NCBI RefSeq assembly: GCF_000473895.1 | Contig: NZ_ASSJ01000035.1 | Coordinates: 1 to 64,000, forward strand | Direction of reading: 5' to 3' | Length of the DNA: 64,000 nucleotides | From: Rubidibacter lacunae KORDI 51-2 | GTDB taxonomy: Bacteria; Cyanobacteriota; Cyanobacteriia; Cyanobacteriales; Rubidibacteraceae | Shown here: positions 16,164 through 38,467 of the stretch, in pieces | Numbering within the stretch: the first letter of the stretch is position 1 | Layout of the letters: each line of letters begins with the position of its first letter | Made by a program: the position numbers and the translations under genes | The notes under the pieces: model-generated | The model's database searches: none | The model's input: only the letters and a program-made list of their open reading frames with translations | Told to the model about the DNA's origin: nothing

Positions 16164-16898
16164 ATGTACAAGCCTTTTCAGAAGTATTTAGAAGATAGTT
16201 TGTTCGGTCGGTTTGAGCTTAAAGAAACGCCTATTCCGACAACCCTAGCTCGGCAAGTTTCCGAGCGAGGTAAGAATCCAGCAACCATTCAAAGCTGGTG
16301 TTACGAGAGTTCTCGGCTCCGTAAGATTCGTTATACTTATATTGATGCGGGCGAGTCCGCACAGATTTTTAATAGCGTCATTTACCCAAGGGTTTCTTTC
16401 GATTTGCCGCTGTTGGGAATCGACTTACTCTCTTTCAATAACCGCAAGTTTCTAGTTGTTGTTGACTTTCAACCCCTCTTTCGTGACATAGACTACCAGC
16501 AGCGTTATATCGAGCCCATGCGACCGATCTACGATCGCTATCGAGATCTGGCTCAAGATCTGGGCATGAAATTTTATGATGCCAACCAGTATTTTTCAAA
16601 GTATCTTATCTTTGCAAAAACCGATTACGAGACAGTCGAGCAGCGAGTTTTTCCCGCATACCAGGACTATTTGAATCTGTATTGGGAAATGCTCGATGCT
16701 GCAGTTCCTTTTACCGATCCAAGGGATATCGAGCGGATCGACCAAGCCCATCACGACTACGATCAGTACAGTGCCGATCGCGACCCAGCCCACGGGCTAT
16801 TCAGCAGCTACTTCGGTCACGAATGGGCAGAGCGCTTCCTCTACGAGTTTCTGTTCGATCGCGCTAAGCCAGTATCAGCTGGAGTCAAGCACCCATGA
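16164..16898 (+). CDS. pebA: PebA, 15,16-dihydrobiliverdin:ferredoxin oxidoreductase
   Basis: The 244-aa protein is a ferredoxin-dependent bilin reductase. It has the PebA-type opening, [40 protein letters not shown] with the conserved acidic residue that protonates biliverdin, [11 protein letters not shown], and the end [20 protein letters not shown]. PebA reduces biliverdin IX-alpha at the 15,16 bond, the first step to phycoerythrobilin. Its TGA overlaps the pebB ATG by four bases, so the two are translationally coupled, consistent with direct channelling of the intermediate. Confidence 0.95.
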
Positions 16899-17641
16899 CT
16901 CTATATCAACCTTTCTTAGAGTACGCGATCGACGAACTCAACCGTTCCCTCGATTTGGGGCCTTACCCGATTCCGGCAGGCTTCGAACATAAGAGTGCGA
17001 TGACGGGGAGTGCAAAAAAAGCTCAGGAAGTTGTAACGACTAGTTATGCCTACCGGGCTCCGAAGCTTCGTCAGATTCGGGCCGCTCACGTTCGAGGTGG
17101 GAAGCAGCTTCAGGTTTTGAATTTCGTTATTTTCCCGGAGTTGCATTACGACCTCCCCTTCTTTGGTGCAGATCTCGTAACCTTACCAGGCGGGCACCTG
17201 ATTGCTTTGGATATGCAGCCGCTGTTTCGCGACGATCCAGCTTATAAAGAGCGCTACACATCTCCGATCTGGGAACTATTTCAGAAACATCAAGTCAATT
17301 TGCCTTGGGGTGGGGACTTCCCGGAAGAAGCTCAACCCTTTTTCTCGGATGCGTTTTTATGGACGCGTCCCAAGGAGGATGACGTTGTCAAAACTCATGT
17401 TTTTGCTGCGTTTAAAGATTACCTTCAGGCATACTTGAAGTTCGTGAAGGCTGCCAAACCCGTGCTCGAGGATTGCTTGTCTGAGGTCCGGGAAGCCCAA
17501 TTGCGTTACTTGCGTTATCGAGCCGCCAAGGACCCCGCGCGCGGAATGTTTCAGCGCTTTTATGGACCTGAATGGACCGAAGAGTACATTCATGGATTCC
17601 TTTTCGATCTCGAGCGCAAGCTTGCAGTTCAAACCCCGTGA
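16895..17641 (+). CDS. pebB: PebB, phycoerythrobilin:ferredoxin oxidoreductase
   Basis: The 248-aa protein matches Peb[75 protein letters not shown] and the end [20 protein letters not shown]. It reduces dihydrobiliverdin to phycoerythrobilin, the chromophore loaded on the phycoerythrin subunits encoded at 20-21 kb. It starts inside the pebA stop (ATGA). About 108 bases separate it from the convergent orphan phycobiliprotein-like gene. Confidence 0.95.
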
Positions 17642-17749: not shown

Positions 17750-18364
17750 CTATAGACCTTCTTTGAAGGCCAGAAGTGCTTCACGGAGGGGGCGAGCACA
17801 GCGCGTCAAGCTCGACTGCTCGTACTCGGTCGAGCATCGGTCGGTTGCCGATTGCTGCAGCATTTGTATCCCAAAGATCATCGCAGGCAGTGGGACGCGC
17901 AACTCGCAGTACAACAGGTTCATATGGTGCAGTCCGTCTTGGCTGAGGTAATCATCGCGATCGCCAACTGTGCCGTAAGTTATGCATCGCAGGAAGTGCC
18001 AGAAGTCTCGCCAGCAGGCGTCTGCACGAAATTTAGGGTGAAGACCACCACCGGGCTCGGTAATGCCGGGGAAAGACTCAAGCACCTGCTCCCGTGCTTC
18101 GGCAACGATCTCGGCAGCAGTATCTCGCAAGCGGCCTGCTAGCAGGAGCGACTGGCGCTCGAGGTTTTGCCAGTTCGCTCCTTGAGACAGATCGAAAATG
18201 GCTTCCAGGTCGTCATCGTCGAGAAAGCGACCTGCATCATCTGCTGCTTGCAGTCGCGCGATCGCCTCAGGAGGCAAGTCTCCTTCCCAGCGGGCAAAGC
18301 TAACAATGCGAGCCTTGGGAATGAGCTGTTTAGCGCGATCGCTCAAGGGTGGTACTGCACTCAT
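17750..18364 (-). CDS. orphan phycobiliprotein-like protein
   Basis: This 204-aa protein belongs to the phycobilisome-protein (globin-like) family but is not a standard APC, PC or PE subunit. The helix carrying the central chromophore site is present as ADACWRDFWHFLRCITYG, with Cys117 at the place equivalent to Cys82/84 of phycobiliproteins and the Arg-Asp pair that holds a bilin. HHMNLLYCELRVPLPAMIFG follows, as in phycobiliprotein alpha subunits. Such orphan homologues occur in cyanobacterial phycobilisome gene regions and have no settled function. Binding of a bilin as a carrier or sensor is possible, but inferred. It follows a small helical gene on the same strand by 106 bases and converges on pebB. 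Confidence 0.8.
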   Translation of the reverse strand: MSAVPPLSDRAKQLIPKARIVSFARWEGDLPPEAIARLQAADDAGRFLDDDDLEAIFDLSQGANWQNLERQSLLLAGRLRDTAAEIVAEAREQVLESFPGITEPGGGLHPKFRADACWRDFWHFLRCITYGTVGDRDDYLSQDGLHHMNLLYCELRVPLPAMIFGIQMLQQSATDRCSTEYEQSSLTRCARPLREALLAFKEGL

Positions 18365-25867: not shown

Positions 25868-26725
25868 TTATTCAGCAGTTTGTTTCTGCTCGAGTTGCCG
25901 GACGGCAAGTGCCAGAACACGCTGAATAGACTCATCGAGCTCGCGATCGCGAACGGCTCGCAATTCGCTCAAGGTTTCATCCGCGCCCAGTTTCATCAAA
26001 GACATAGCAGCAGCTTTTCGAACTCCCCCATCCGAGTCGCGCAGGCTGTCTACCAAACCCGGCACTCCACGCCGGTCCTCAACTTGACCGAGAAGAGCCG
26101 CTGCTTCAATACGAATGTTGACTAAGTCATCAGTCAGAGACGAGCACAAGAGTTGAAAGGCCTTTTCGTCTTTCTGTTCTCGGACGAGTGTTGCAATTGC
26201 TCCGATTGCAGCAATACGAACCTCCTCGACGTCAGATTCGAATGCTTTGTAAAGCAAGTCAGCAATTTTTCTTCCCATAAAGGCCAACGCCCAAGCTGCA
26301 TGACCCTTCGCCGTCTCAGACTGGGCCGGGTCCGCTAGGATTTCGAGTAAAGGCGGTGCGGACACTTCACCTGTCTCGGCGAGAGCACCTACTGCCGAAC
26401 TGCGTACAACTCGATCCTCATCAGTTAAGAACGCATCGATTAGTACCGGAACTGCCTCCGGATCGGCGAGGAGTGTTAAAGTTTTTGCACTCGCGCGACG
26501 AACGACCGGATCGTCATGATTCCGCAATGCTTCAAGCAACTGCGGGGTTGCTGCCCTGCCTACGCGTTCGAGGGCTTGCGCAAAATTCAGCCGAACCATG
26601 CCTCGCGGATCGCCCATCCCTTCAATTGCCCGCTCGATCAGATCGCGATCGCTACGGTCGAAAGTATTGTCATTTAACTGCTGTTGTATGCTCAGCAATA
26701 GTTTGTCTGCTTCAACTTGCTGCAT
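25868..26725 (-). CDS. cpeF: HEAT-repeat bilin lyase, probable CpeF (MpeV-type)
   Basis: The 285-aa protein has HEAT/PBS-lyase repeats along its length: DPRGMVRLNFAQALERVGRA (about 38-57), DDPVVRRASAKTLTLLADPE, EDRVVRSSAVGALAETGEVS, AKGHAAWALAFMGRKIADLL, LVNIRIEAAALLGQVEDRRG, GGVRKAAAMSLMKLGADET. Length and the repeat with KGHAAWALAFMG fit CpeF, which in Fremyella attaches the doubly linked phycoerythrobilin at CpeB Cys50/61. An NblB-like or other HEAT protein is the alternative. It lies 2.5 kb past cpeZ on the opposite strand. Family certain, CpeF assignment likely. Confidence 0.75.
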   Translation of the reverse strand: MQQVEADKLLLSIQQQLNDNTFDRSDRDLIERAIEGMGDPRGMVRLNFAQALERVGRAATPQLLEALRNHDDPVVRRASAKTLTLLADPEAVPVLIDAFLTDEDRVVRSSAVGALAETGEVSAPPLLEILADPAQSETAKGHAAWALAFMGRKIADLLYKAFESDVEEVRIAAIGAIATLVREQKDEKAFQLLCSSLTDDLVNIRIEAAALLGQVEDRRGVPGLVDSLRDSDGGVRKAAAMSLMKLGADETLSELRAVRDRELDESIQRVLALAVRQLEQKQTAE

Positions 26726-33040: not shown

Positions 33041-33559
33041 ATGTTTGACGCATTTACCCGAGTAGTTTCCCAGGCCGATGCTCGCGGCGAGTTTCTCAGC
33101 GACAGCCAGCTCGACGCTCTGGAAGCAATGGTGAAGGAGAGCAACAAGCGTCACGACGCCGTCAACCGCGTGACCAGCAATTCGTCGAAAATCGTGACTG
33201 ATGCTGCTCGCGAGCTTTTTGCCGACCAGCCCCAACTGGTGCAACCGGGTGGCAACGCTTACACCAACCGTCGCATGTCAGCTTGCCTGCGCGATATGGA
33301 AATCATCCTGCGTTACGTCACCTACGCCCTGCTGGCTGGCGACGCGAGCGTTCTGGAAGATCGCTGCCTCAACGGGCTGCGCGAGACCTACCAAGCGCTG
33401 GGTACCCCTGGTTCCTCTGTCGCAGTCGGCGTCCAAAAAATGAAGGACGCTGCTATTCGTCTCGTCAACGATCCGAGCGGGATCACTCAGGGTGACTGCA
33501 GCCAAATTGTTTCCGAGCTGTCCAGCTACTTCGATCGCGCTTCTGCTGCGGTTGCGTAG
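33041..33559 (+). CDS. cpcB: CpcB, phycocyanin beta subunit
   Basis: The 172-aa protein has Cys82 ([12 protein letters not shown]) and Cys153 ([11 protein letters not shown]), the two beta-subunit bilin sites, and Asn72 in GGNAYTNRR for methylation. The opening [20 protein letters not shown] is typical of phycocyanin beta. In R-phycocyanins Cys153 carries phycoerythrobilin while Cys82 carries phycocyanobilin. The sequence alone does not decide which bilins are bound here. First gene of the phycocyanin operon. Confidence 0.97.
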
Positions 33560-33645: not shown

Positions 33646-34134
33646 ATGAAAACCCCGATTACGGAAGCCATCTCTGCTGCTGACAACCAAGGTCGCTTTC
33701 TGAGCACCACCGAGCTGCAAGCAGCAAATGGCCGTTACGAGCGCGCTGCTGCAGGTATGCAGGCTGCCCGTACCCTGACTCAGAAGTCCAGCGCTCTGAT
33801 TAGCGGCGCGGCGAACGCAGTGTACCAGAAGTTCCCGTACACTGTTCAGATGCAGGGTTCCCAGTATGCTTCCGACCAGCGCGGCAAGGACAAGTGCACG
33901 CGCGACATCAGTCACTACCTACGCATGGTGACCTACTGCTTGATTGCTGGTGGCACTGGCCCGATGGACGAGTATCTGGTTGCAGGTCTGGACGAGATGA
34001 ACCGCTCGTTCGAGCTGTCCCCGAGCTGGTACATCGAAGCGCTCAAGTATATCAAACTCAATCACGGTTTGAGCGGTCAAGCGGCAACTGAGGCTAACAC
34101 CTACATCGACTACGCGGTTAATGCCCTGAGCTAA
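33646..34134 (+). CDS. cpcA: CpcA, phycocyanin alpha subunit
   Basis: The 162-aa protein has one bilin site, Cys84 ([15 protein letters not shown]). The typical phycocyanin alpha segments [40 protein letters not shown] and [16 protein letters not shown] are present. The fused lyase with an isomerase motif downstream (35098-36531) is the likely enzyme for Cys84. If so, the bilin here would be phycourobilin or phycoviolobilin rather than phycocyanobilin, as in R-phycocyanin V or phycoerythrocyanin. Sequence similarity favours phycocyanin rather than PecA. Confidence 0.96.
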
Positions 34135-34457
34135 TCGCGTTTGCGCATGCCCGGGAAGACCGAGCGAATGATGGCTAAGGCTAGCGTTTGTAGGCTCTTT
34201 CTGGGCATTGGCTTTCGATTGGCTTGGATGCACGAGGATTAATTGAGATGCGCTCGATAGAAATTGCAATAACTCCAACAGAGACTGCGTTGTAGTGAAA
34301 AGTTTGCCATATGCATCTGGCATAGGCATGCTCCGATATTTAGAGGATTGCCCGCCTACTAAGCAAATTCAAGTGCTTGATGGAAAAGGCAGTCGCTTTC
34401 TTTAGGTCTAAACGGAGCAGTTGTTAGGTCAATGCATTAGTGTTTAGGAGCACAGAA
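34135..34457. other. gap between cpcA and cpcD
   Basis: No gene in about 320 bases. An imperfect inverted repeat (TGCCCGGGAAGA at 34148-34159 and TCTTTCTGGGCA at 34196-34207) could form a weak hairpin after cpcA. CpcD has its own good ribosome site (TTTAGGAGCACAGAA) just before ATG 34458. Confidence 0.4.
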
Positions 34458-34709
34458 ATGAACGGGCAATCAGCGTTAAGCAGAACATCAGAAACAACTG
34501 GCGCGCGCATGTACCGAATTGAAGTACAGGGCATGAGTAAGAGCGGCCAAATGGGCCCCAACGCTCCCATCCGCAAGAGCGGCAGTATTTTCATCGCCGT
34601 ACCTTACAAGCGCATGAGCGAAGAAGTGCAGCATATTATTCGCGCGGGCGGGAAAATCGCTAGTATTGCACCTCTTACGAGTGATGCTAACAACAATCAC
34701 GGCGAATAG
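34458..34709 (+). CDS. cpcD: CpcD-type small rod-capping linker
   Basis: The 83-aa protein consists of a single CpcD domain: MYRIEVQGMSKSGQMGPNAP (about residues 16-35), SGSIFIAVPYKRMSEEVQHI and GGKIASIAPL. This is the usual size for CpcD, the 9-kDa linker that caps the end of phycobilisome rods. The start at 34458 (MNGQSALSRTS) has AGGAG seven bases upstream; the frame opens six codons earlier. A CpeC-like linker tail is excluded because no rod-linker domain precedes it. Confidence 0.9.
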   Translation: MNGQSALSRTSETTGARMYRIEVQGMSKSGQMGPNAPIRKSGSIFIAVPYKRMSEEVQHIIRAGGKIASIAPLTSDANNNHGE

Positions 34710-35097: not shown

Positions 35098-36531
35098 ATG
35101 ACGGAAGAAATTGTTGTTCGCCCCCCGCAGCCAATATGTTCTGCAGAGACTGCAATTGCTGCCTTGAGCAGCGAGGACGATGGGATTCGCTACTATGCTG
35201 CCTGGTGGTTGGGTAAGCATCGAGTTCAAGATGCCTGTGAGGCTCTTTGCGAAGCCCTCAAGGACGAGCGAGACCGGACTGCTTTAGGTGGTTACCCCCT
35301 TCGTCGTCAAGCAGCCCGTTCTCTAGGCTTATTGAAAAACTCCTTGGCAGTTCCTGCTTTGATTGAAGTTTTAGAATGCCCGGATCTCAGGCTTCAAGAG
35401 GCAGCCATTCATGCTTTAGCTACTATTGAAGATCGCGCAGCCATCCCTGGGCTTCTGGCACTTTTCGACTTGGAAGGGGAAATTGCAGCTGAAGCCTTGC
35501 TGGAAGCATTGGCTACTTTCGAAGTCTGGGAGGCACGACTCCAGGTCGAGAAGTTTTACAGCCATCCCTCGGAGCGCGTGCAGTGCGCGGCAGCTCGCTA
35601 TCTGTATGCCCTTACGCGGGAGTCAACTTATCTTCAGAAGCTCTTACAGACACTCGAACACGAAAACCATTTCCTGCGCTGGGCTGCTACATTCGACCTT
35701 GGAGGGCTGGGATTGTTGGAAGTTGCTCCAGCTTTAATCAAGGCATTCGTTCCGAATAGTATTAAGTTACTGAATCTCAAGCGAATCCTGGAAAGGCTTT
35801 TGCAAAACGAGGCGATCGCCGAGGTTCAACGCCAGAAAGAGTCTGACTTTTTGTTTGACTCAATAGATGGTTTACTGATTGAATTAGAATCTTCTACAAG
35901 AAACGCTCTTGATGCTAGTACTCGTCTAGAGGTGTCAGAGGAATCTATACGAGAAATGAGAAGTCTCGAAGCTTTAGTCATCGCTCAGCAGGATGAAACG
36001 GGTGGGACTCAAGATGAGTCAGTAAGTCCGGTGGCAGCTTTGATCGCAGCACTGAGATCAAAGCATCCTAAAGTAAGAGCAGCTGCAATTGATGGATTGG
36101 TGGAACTTGCCCCTGCTACAGTTAAACCCTTAATCGAAGCCTATGAGTCAAGCAACGATCATGGATACCAGGCTTGTTTAATTCAGGCAATTGCCCGTAT
36201 TGGCGACCCGAGAGCACTGGAGCTTTTGCAAGATGTTGTTGGGGTCGAAATCGCAAATCACTGTCAGGGGAATGTTCGTCGGGTAGCAGCCTTGGGTCTA
36301 GGCAGAATAGGACGCCAAGCTCCTGGATCCAAGGCAAGTCAGCTAGCTTTGAAAAAGCTCGACTGGGCATTGCGGATGCCTGAAGATTGGGCGCTACGGT
36401 ACAGTGCTGCAGTATCCCTAGAAGAAATCGGGAGCACCGAGTCCATGTTTGTTTTGCAGACGGCCGCCAATTCTGAGATAGATCTGGTGGTTCAAACCAG
36501 AATCGCACGCGCTTTAGCAGCAATTTTGTAG
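35098..36531 (+). CDS. rpcG: fused E/F-type bilin lyase-isomerase (RpcG/PecEF type)
   Basis: The protein is 477 aa from ATG 35098 (MTEEIVVRPPQPICSAE). Residues about 14-265 resemble the E subunit (CpcE/PecE), with YYAAWWLG at 32-39 and GGYPLRRQAARSLGLLKNSL. A linker (about 265-305) leads to an F-like part (305-477) with HEAT repeats. That part contains ANHCQGNVRRVAALGLGRIG; NHCQGN is at 387-392 (36256-36273). This motif is known to be needed for isomerisation in PecF and is kept in RpcG but absent from CpcF. RpcG attaches phycoerythrobilin to phycocyanin alpha Cys84 and converts it to phycourobilin; PecE/F makes phycoviolobilin. Order cpcB-cpcA-(cpcD)-fusion matches marine rpcB-rpcA-rpcG. Which product forms is not decided by sequence. 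Confidence 0.85.
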   Translation: MTEEIVVRPPQPICSAETAIAALSSEDDGIRYYAAWWLGKHRVQDACEALCEALKDERDRTALGGYPLRRQAARSLGLLKNSLAVPALIEVLECPDLRLQEAAIHALATIEDRAAIPGLLALFDLEGEIAAEALLEALATFEVWEARLQVEKFYSHPSERVQCAAARYLYALTRESTYLQKLLQTLEHENHFLRWAATFDLGGLGLLEVAPALIKAFVPNSIKLLNLKRILERLLQNEAIAEVQRQKESDFLFDSIDGLLIELESSTRNALDASTRLEVSEESIREMRSLEALVIAQQDETGGTQDESVSPVAALIAALRSKHPKVRAAAIDGLVELAPATVKPLIEAYESSNDHGYQACLIQAIARIGDPRALELLQDVVGVEIANHCQGNVRRVAALGLGRIGRQAPGSKASQLALKKLDWALRMPEDWALRYSAAVSLEEIGSTESMFVLQTAANSEIDLVVQTRIARALAAIL

Positions 36532-37693: not shown

Positions 37694-38467
37694 ATGTCAA
37701 TACCTTTGCTGACTTACTCTCCCACAAGCCGCAACCACCGTGTGGAAGGTTACGAAGTGTTCGGAGACGAGCAGCCCAGAGCCTACAGCCTAGATACTGC
37801 GTCGACTTCTACAGAGGTAAGCGAGGTAATTTTTGCTGCATATCGGCAAGTCTTCAACGAACAGCAGCTTATCTCGAGCAATCGGCAGCGCGCGCTGGAG
37901 TCGCAACTCCGGTTCAGACAAATTACCGTTCATGACTTTGTAAAAGGCTTGGTGCTCTCCGAGACATTCCGCGAACGCAACTATGATTGCAATAACAACT
38001 ACCGCTTTGTAGATCTGTGCGTTCAGCGACTGCTCGGTCGCGATGTATACGGACAACGGGAGCGGTTTGCTTGGTCGGTCGTTCTGGCTACTGAGGGCTT
38101 ACAGGGATTTGTCGATGCCTTGTTAAACAGCGACGAGTATCAAAGCAATTTTGGGGAAGAAGTCGTACCCTATCAACGGCGGCGAATTTTACCCCAGCGG
38201 GATTCGGGTGAAGTGACATTTGCACACACTCCTCGCTACGGCTCAGATCATCTTGCCACGTTGGCAGCTGTCGGCAATGATTTTGCAACCCCAGCTCCAC
38301 TCTTTCGTTGGTTGGTTGTCAACGACGTCCGCTGGTCTTGGCAACGCCCGCCTTACAGCAATGCCTACCAGACGCTTGCACGCATCAGTGCCTGGGCAAT
38401 CGCCATCTTTATGGGAGCTGTAACCCTTTCGGTTGCTCTGGCAGCTTGGGGAATTATCTCCCTATAA
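37694..38467 (+). CDS. cpcL: CpcL (CpcG2-type) membrane-anchored rod linker
   Basis: The 257-aa protein has a CpcG-like N-terminus (MSIPLLTYSPTSRNHRVEGY) and a linker domain (about 40-170: FAAYRQVFNEQQLISSNRQR, NYRFVDLCVQRLLGRDVYGQ, LLNSDEYQSNFGEEVVPYQR). It ends in a hydrophobic segment (about 228-257, ARISAWAIAIFMGAVTLSVA and on) that spans the membrane. This tail marks CpcL, which builds core-less rods attached to the thylakoid and feeds photosystem I or NDH-PSI complexes, in contrast to CpcG1, which joins rods to the core. A GGAGTT ribosome site precedes the ATG. Confidence 0.92.
   Translation: MSIPLLTYSPTSRNHRVEGYEVFGDEQPRAYSLDTASTSTEVSEVIFAAYRQVFNEQQLISSNRQRALESQLRFRQITVHDFVKGLVLSETFRERNYDCNNNYRFVDLCVQRLLGRDVYGQRERFAWSVVLATEGLQGFVDALLNSDEYQSNFGEEVVPYQRRRILPQRDSGEVTFAHTPRYGSDHLATLAAVGNDFATPAPLFRWLVVNDVRWSWQRPPYSNAYQTLARISAWAIAIFMGAVTLSVALAAWGIISL

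Follow-up and report, generated by a model that had tools for sequence, protein, structure and literature searches.

The fused lyase gene and its surroundings

The window considered here is a stretch of 64,000 nucleotides from the genome of the marine cyanobacterium Rubidibacter lacunae KORDI 51-2, which contains phycoerythrin and belongs to the ‘Halothece’ cluster (PMC3910548). On its forward strand lie, in order, cpcB for the phycocyanin beta subunit (33041..33559; PF00502), cpcA for the alpha subunit (33646..34134; PF00502), a cpcD-like gene for a small rod linker (34440..34709; PF01383, E=1.4e-19) and then, at 35098..36531, the gene of a putative single-chain bilin lyase-isomerase of the E/F type, resembling RpcG. 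This is the order given in the original prediction, which had placed the lyase after cpcB-cpcA-cpcD. The alpha subunit is the presumed substrate, its Cys84 being encoded at 33895-33897. The same strand carries pebA (16164..16898), for the supply of 15,16-dihydrobiliverdin towards phycoerythrobilin (PEB), and pebB (16895..17641), for the making of PEB itself; both contain PF05996, and the assignment of pebA also draws on the PebA/PebB order.

The lyase gene is one open reading frame of 477 codons with an ATG start and no internal stops, and HEAT/PBS-lyase repeats run along the whole of its product (Pfam HEAT_2, E=1.6e-38; HEAT_PBS, E=1.6e-19). Residues 12-240 align with CpcE (5n3u_A; E=2e-51) and residues 308-444 with CpcF (E=2e-10) of PDB 5n3u, the Nostoc CpcE/F structure, such that the joining of CpcE/PecE-like and CpcF/PecF-like halves in one gene, as first proposed, is borne out. 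The PecE/CpcE-like half (about residues 1-265; 35098..35892, forward strand) is mostly 52-61% identical to PecE proteins, and the PecF/CpcF-like half (about residues 305-477; 36010..36528, forward strand) is 46-54% identical to PecF and 34-37% to marine RpcG. The AlphaFold2 model of the single chain has a mean pLDDT of 92.4 and a pTM of 0.87, and among natural structures its fold is best matched in the E half by CpcE of 5n3u and, over ~440 columns, by MpeQ (7mc4 and 7mch). MpeQ belongs to a phycoerythrin-associated family and is itself a single-chain E/F lyase-isomerase; it has the fold in common with the Rubidibacter protein over nearly its full length (TM-score 0.57-0.59 by query) but differs in sequence, with 17-18% identity.

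The NHCQGN isomerase motif, which had been noted in the F-like half, is located at residues 387-392 (36256..36273, forward strand), where all six residues are present and the ANHCQGNVRR context of PecF is unbroken. In this regard, the alignment of CpcF proteins has a four-residue gap exactly at the HCQG site; with these four residues missing, CpcF necessarily lacks the motif, as the original prediction also held. The role of the motif has been reviewed, and its His-Cys pair is reported to be essential for the PecF isomerase (PMC2327270); indeed, the function of RpcG was predicted from a motif of the NHCQGN type (PMC2246261). The motif may be necessary without being sufficient for isomerisation.

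Lyases and phycobiliproteins across the genome

The genome is a draft of 4,153,658 bases in 99 contigs, 99.6% complete. It encodes one phycocyanin pair, one phycoerythrin pair, allophycocyanins and one orphan phycobiliprotein-like gene, and a genome-wide search for a second cpc- or pec-like alpha/beta pair found none, pecAB being absent. Of its three bilin reductases, PebA and PebB are encoded in the window; the remaining one, taken as PcyA, lies on a different contig.

A BLAST search of the genome with the fused lyase returns, besides the protein itself, CpeY, CpeZ and one weak HEAT protein. Moreover, the CpcE profile places the fused lyase at the top of the whole genome with 214 bits, followed by CpeY with 74 bits, and the CpcF profile does likewise with 75 bits, followed by a HEAT protein with 38 bits. 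The fused lyase is thus the only strong match to either profile across the genome, and the possibility of separate CpcE/F genes elsewhere is rejected by these searches; in other words, the absence of separate cpcE/cpcF or pec genes, originally noted for the window, extends by profile to the whole draft genome. Since a 99.6% complete genome contains no other CpcE/F, the fused lyase is the only candidate lyase for alpha-84 in this draft assembly.

History of the phycocyanin operon

In the same family, one relative (G374) has a complete cpcBA-cpcC-cpcD-cpcEF operon and another (G328) has cpcB-cpcA, linkers and cpcD followed by cpcE. The three same-family relatives that were checked each have a single bilin reductase, PcyA, with pebA absent, and no comparable fusion was found in eight same-family genomes. 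Rubidibacter CpcA is 81-84% identical to the CpcA of its family and groups with them at 98/89, from which cpcA is judged to be vertically inherited. A recent acceleration of CpcA was considered and set aside: its branch is longer than those of its relatives, but it differs from them by 16% where two relatives differ from each other by 12%, a margin too small to carry the point. Because cpcA appears to be inherited vertically, the change would be an exchange of the alpha-84 lyase within an ordinary C-phycocyanin operon. Most simply, this lineage, which has pebAB and phycoerythrin as well, would have kept its inherited C-phycocyanin operon but taken up a fused isomerising lyase in exchange for cpcE-cpcF.

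Phylogeny of the E/F-type lyases

Searching the named genomes with aligned F halves of the isomerase type gave 76 loci, to which class- and order-wide searches added more. The scanned loci sort into PecE+PecF pairs of pec operons, marine Synechococcus RpcG, and a group of single-chain proteins from Trichodesmium, Moorena, Symploca, Richelia and Calothrix rhizosoleniae, in most of which the motif reads HCQGK rather than HCQGN. Maximum-likelihood trees with CpcE/F at the root recover a 100/100 clade of single-chain, PecE/F-derived lyases that holds RpcG and the single-chain group and in which the Rubidibacter lyase branches deepest; the PecE/F of pec operons fall outside this clade. The Rubidibacter protein branches before marine RpcG and not within it, on a fairly long branch (0.43); its nearest neighbours are the Trichodesmium, Moorena and Symploca fusions, and the HCQGK fusions stand nearer to RpcG than it does. 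A tree constrained to unite the Rubidibacter lyase with the PecE/F of pec operons is rejected (AU p=0.005). Long-branch attraction was considered as a cause of the placement, and the grouping was unchanged after the long marine rows were removed.

Such a tree of CpcE/F, PecE/F and RpcG had been proposed as a check on the original prediction, and it places the lyase with RpcG, apart from CpcE/F. It bears directly on whether the gene could be an ordinary fusion of cpcE and cpcF, as its position after cpcD, where relatives of the same family carry cpcE-cpcF, would permit. That reading is contradicted by the tree, in which CpcE/F lie on the far side of the 100/100 split with long branches between. 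The motif residues, moreover, are those missing from CpcF, and the protein scores below the NCBIfam equivalog cut-offs for both CpcE (222<330) and CpcF (80<220). An ordinary fusion is accordingly very improbable: CpcE/CpcF have the E/F architecture and the genomic position in common with the Rubidibacter lyase, but differ from it in their separate subunits, in having no HCQG and in their distance in the tree. The tree and the gap in CpcF together uphold the claim that an isomerase-type, PecF/RpcG-like single-chain lyase occupies the place of cpcEF.

The likeness to RpcG needs a more qualified statement. RpcG of marine Synechococcus, the PEB lyase-isomerase that gives phycourobilin (PUB) at RpcA Cys84, is likewise a single chain with NHCQGN (PMC2246261), is found downstream of phycocyanin genes where it replaces cpcEF/rpcEF, and lies in the same well-supported clade. 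Set against this common 100/100 clade, identity to RpcG is about 34-41%, lower than that to PecE/PecF and the filamentous fusions (about 50-61%); RpcG also has mostly GNHCQGNIRR where Rubidibacter has ANHCQGNVRR. Conversely, PecE/PecF, the lyase-isomerase that gives phycoviolobilin (PVB) on PecA, have the NHCQGN motif and a high per-half identity to the Rubidibacter protein, but are encoded by two separate genes beside pecBA in pec operons and stand outside the fusion clade. The clade membership therefore stands, whereas overall identity points elsewhere. By its placement in the tree, the Rubidibacter enzyme is best described as a deep-branching member of the known RpcG kind, with no new mechanism predicted.

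Related fused loci

Of 22 loci of the fusion clade, 14 have pebAB, cpe or mpe genes as neighbours; of 56 pec-type loci, one does. These are counts of related loci and not of independent events. The lone pec-type exception, L096, carries HCQGK and is probably itself a fusion-clade gene. The gene order pebA-pebB-cpcB-cpcA-lyase occurs in both Trichodesmium and the RpcG strains.

Single-chain E/F lyases with [NDT]HCQGK, where Rubidibacter has NHCQGN, were recorded at L082, L085, L189 (Trichodesmium type), L048, L049, L058, L060, L099 and L179; no function for such proteins was found in the literature surveyed. In Trichodesmium metagenome-assembled genomes the HCQGK lyase directly follows pebAB-cpcBA, and in Calothrix rhizosoleniae it lies within a phycoerythrin cluster. 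Marine picocyanobacteria also have HCQGK single-chain E/F proteins (L119:9110-10516, L120:9116-10516, L122:9131-10516 and L111:9047-10489), three of which are encoded between mpeBA-like and cpeZ-cpeY genes; in L120 and L122 the gene coexists with rpcEF-like genes. The identification of these marine proteins as MpeQ is unsupported (35.7 bits to 7mc4). In Dolichospermum sp. UHCC 0259 (L054:3537-6332) a single pec operon encodes a single-chain HCQGK lyase and, after it, PecE and PecF.

Two further PecE-PecF fusions, L090:9062-10501 with HCQGT and L094:9179-10522 with HCQGS, lie inside pec operons and apart from the RpcG clade, and probably represent independent fusion. Since they are placed elsewhere in the tree, the fusion of PecE/F-type halves probably arose at least twice.

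The bilin at CpcA Cys84

From the gene, its motif and phylogeny, the absence of CpcE/F and the replacement within the operon, we infer an isomerase activity, the use of PEB over PCB (phycocyanobilin), and the chromophores: the fused protein is likely to be an RpcG-type lyase-isomerase for CpcA Cys84 that takes PEB to phycourobilin, giving a phycocyanin with PCB and PUB. The Cys84 site would thus probably carry a blue-light-absorbing pigment. In the proposed mechanism, the E-like half would bind apo-CpcA and join the bilin at C3(1) to Cys84, while the His-Cys pair of NHCQGN in the F-like half would shift the double bond during attachment. With PEB as the substrate the product would be phycourobilin, and with PCB it would be phycoviolobilin.

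PEB is favoured as the substrate because the clade holds RpcG, which is reported to be a PEB lyase-isomerase acting on RpcA Cys84 (PMC5318389), because members of the clade adjoin PEB and phycoerythrin genes so much more often than pec-type loci do, and because Trichodesmium and the RpcG strains have the pebA-pebB-cpcB-cpcA-lyase order in common. Against this must be weighed the main rival, in which the same isomerising enzyme uses PCB in vivo and forms phycoviolobilin at Cys84, as PecE/F do on PecA, so that the product would be a phycoerythrocyanin-like phycocyanin. PcyA is encoded in the genome, such that PCB is available; among characterised relatives, identity is highest to PecE/F, makers of PVB (per half, up to 61% for PecE and 54% for PecF); and the likely beta-153 lyase is of the PCB type, CpcT. 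PVB is nonetheless the unlikely product, as the lyase groups with RpcG and the Trichodesmium pebAB-cpcBA-EF loci, apart from the PecE/F of pec operons, in a clade co-located with PEB and phycoerythrin genes, and the genome is without pecAB. A point against the main reading is that CpcA has no residue in common solely with isomerised alpha subunits: a comparison of alpha-subunit residues yielded no usable signature of an isomerised Cys84, and at positions 65 and 116, where RpcA of the RpcG type separates from that of the RpcE/F type, Rubidibacter CpcA has the RpcE/F-type letters.

It is less probable still that isomerisation has been lost and that PCB or PEB is attached unchanged at Cys84. Such a loss would be in keeping with the deep and fairly long branch of the lyase in its clade and with the alteration of the motif to HCQGK in many sister proteins; the six residues and their PecF context are, however, intact in Rubidibacter.

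The beta sites and the type of phycocyanin

The T-type lyase gene of Rubidibacter, on contig C79, has its closest counterparts in PcyA-only relatives, being 70% identical to CpcT of one of them (G374), and falls outside the RpcT clade, in a CpcT part of the tree that is poorly resolved. In the marine RpcG strains examined, by comparison, the T-type lyase gene adjoins rpcG and forms a clade of its own; RpcT was sought in the Rubidibacter genome, where only the CpcT type was found. The attachment of PEB at beta-153 has been ascribed, as a proposal, to RpcT (PMC2246261). The original prediction of a trichromatic phycocyanin, which in R-PC V means PUB at alpha-84, PCB at beta-82 and PEB, through an RpcT-type lyase, at beta-153, is therefore unsupported, because the enzyme that probably serves beta-153 is orthologous to ordinary CpcT and is not RpcT. 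A two-bilin phycocyanin is the better prediction, in which CpcB would keep PCB at Cys82 and probably also at Cys153, with PUB at alpha-84; for this combination there is no named phycocyanin type in the literature surveyed. The prediction is tempered by R-PCIII, which carries some PEB and is listed in a strain with cpcT and without rpcT (PMC2246261). The fuller account, in which a C-phycocyanin of the ordinary kind, its cpcBA inherited vertically and its CpcT of the PCB type, was turned into a PCB+PUB form by one exchange of a lyase gene for a deep-branching RpcG, is tentative, its chances being a little short of even.

If the proposal is true, phycourobilin-bearing phycocyanin extends beyond marine Synechococcus, RpcG could be traced back to genes resembling PecE/F in other cyanobacteria, Rubidibacter being the deepest branch known here, and the HCQGK sister proteins become testable. 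The family would also provide a clean natural experiment, with C-phycocyanin both with and without an isomerising lyase, which would inform the choice between PEB to PUB and PCB to PVB.

Other genes of the window

Adjoining pebAB is the orphan phycobiliprotein-like gene (17750-18364, reverse strand; 204 residues; Phycobilisome domain, E=9e-36), whose product falls short of every NCBIfam cut-off for known subunits and has a Cys at the usual bilin position. In the phycoerythrin region, a 285-residue HEAT-repeat protein (25868-26725, reverse strand) has low scores with all NCBIfam lyase models and is possibly a candidate lyase of the CpeF type. Finally, a CpcG-type rod linker encoded at 37694-38467 on the forward strand has a hydrophobic C-terminal stretch (AWAIAIFMGAVTLSVALAAWGIISL), which suggests a linker of the membrane-anchored CpcL type.
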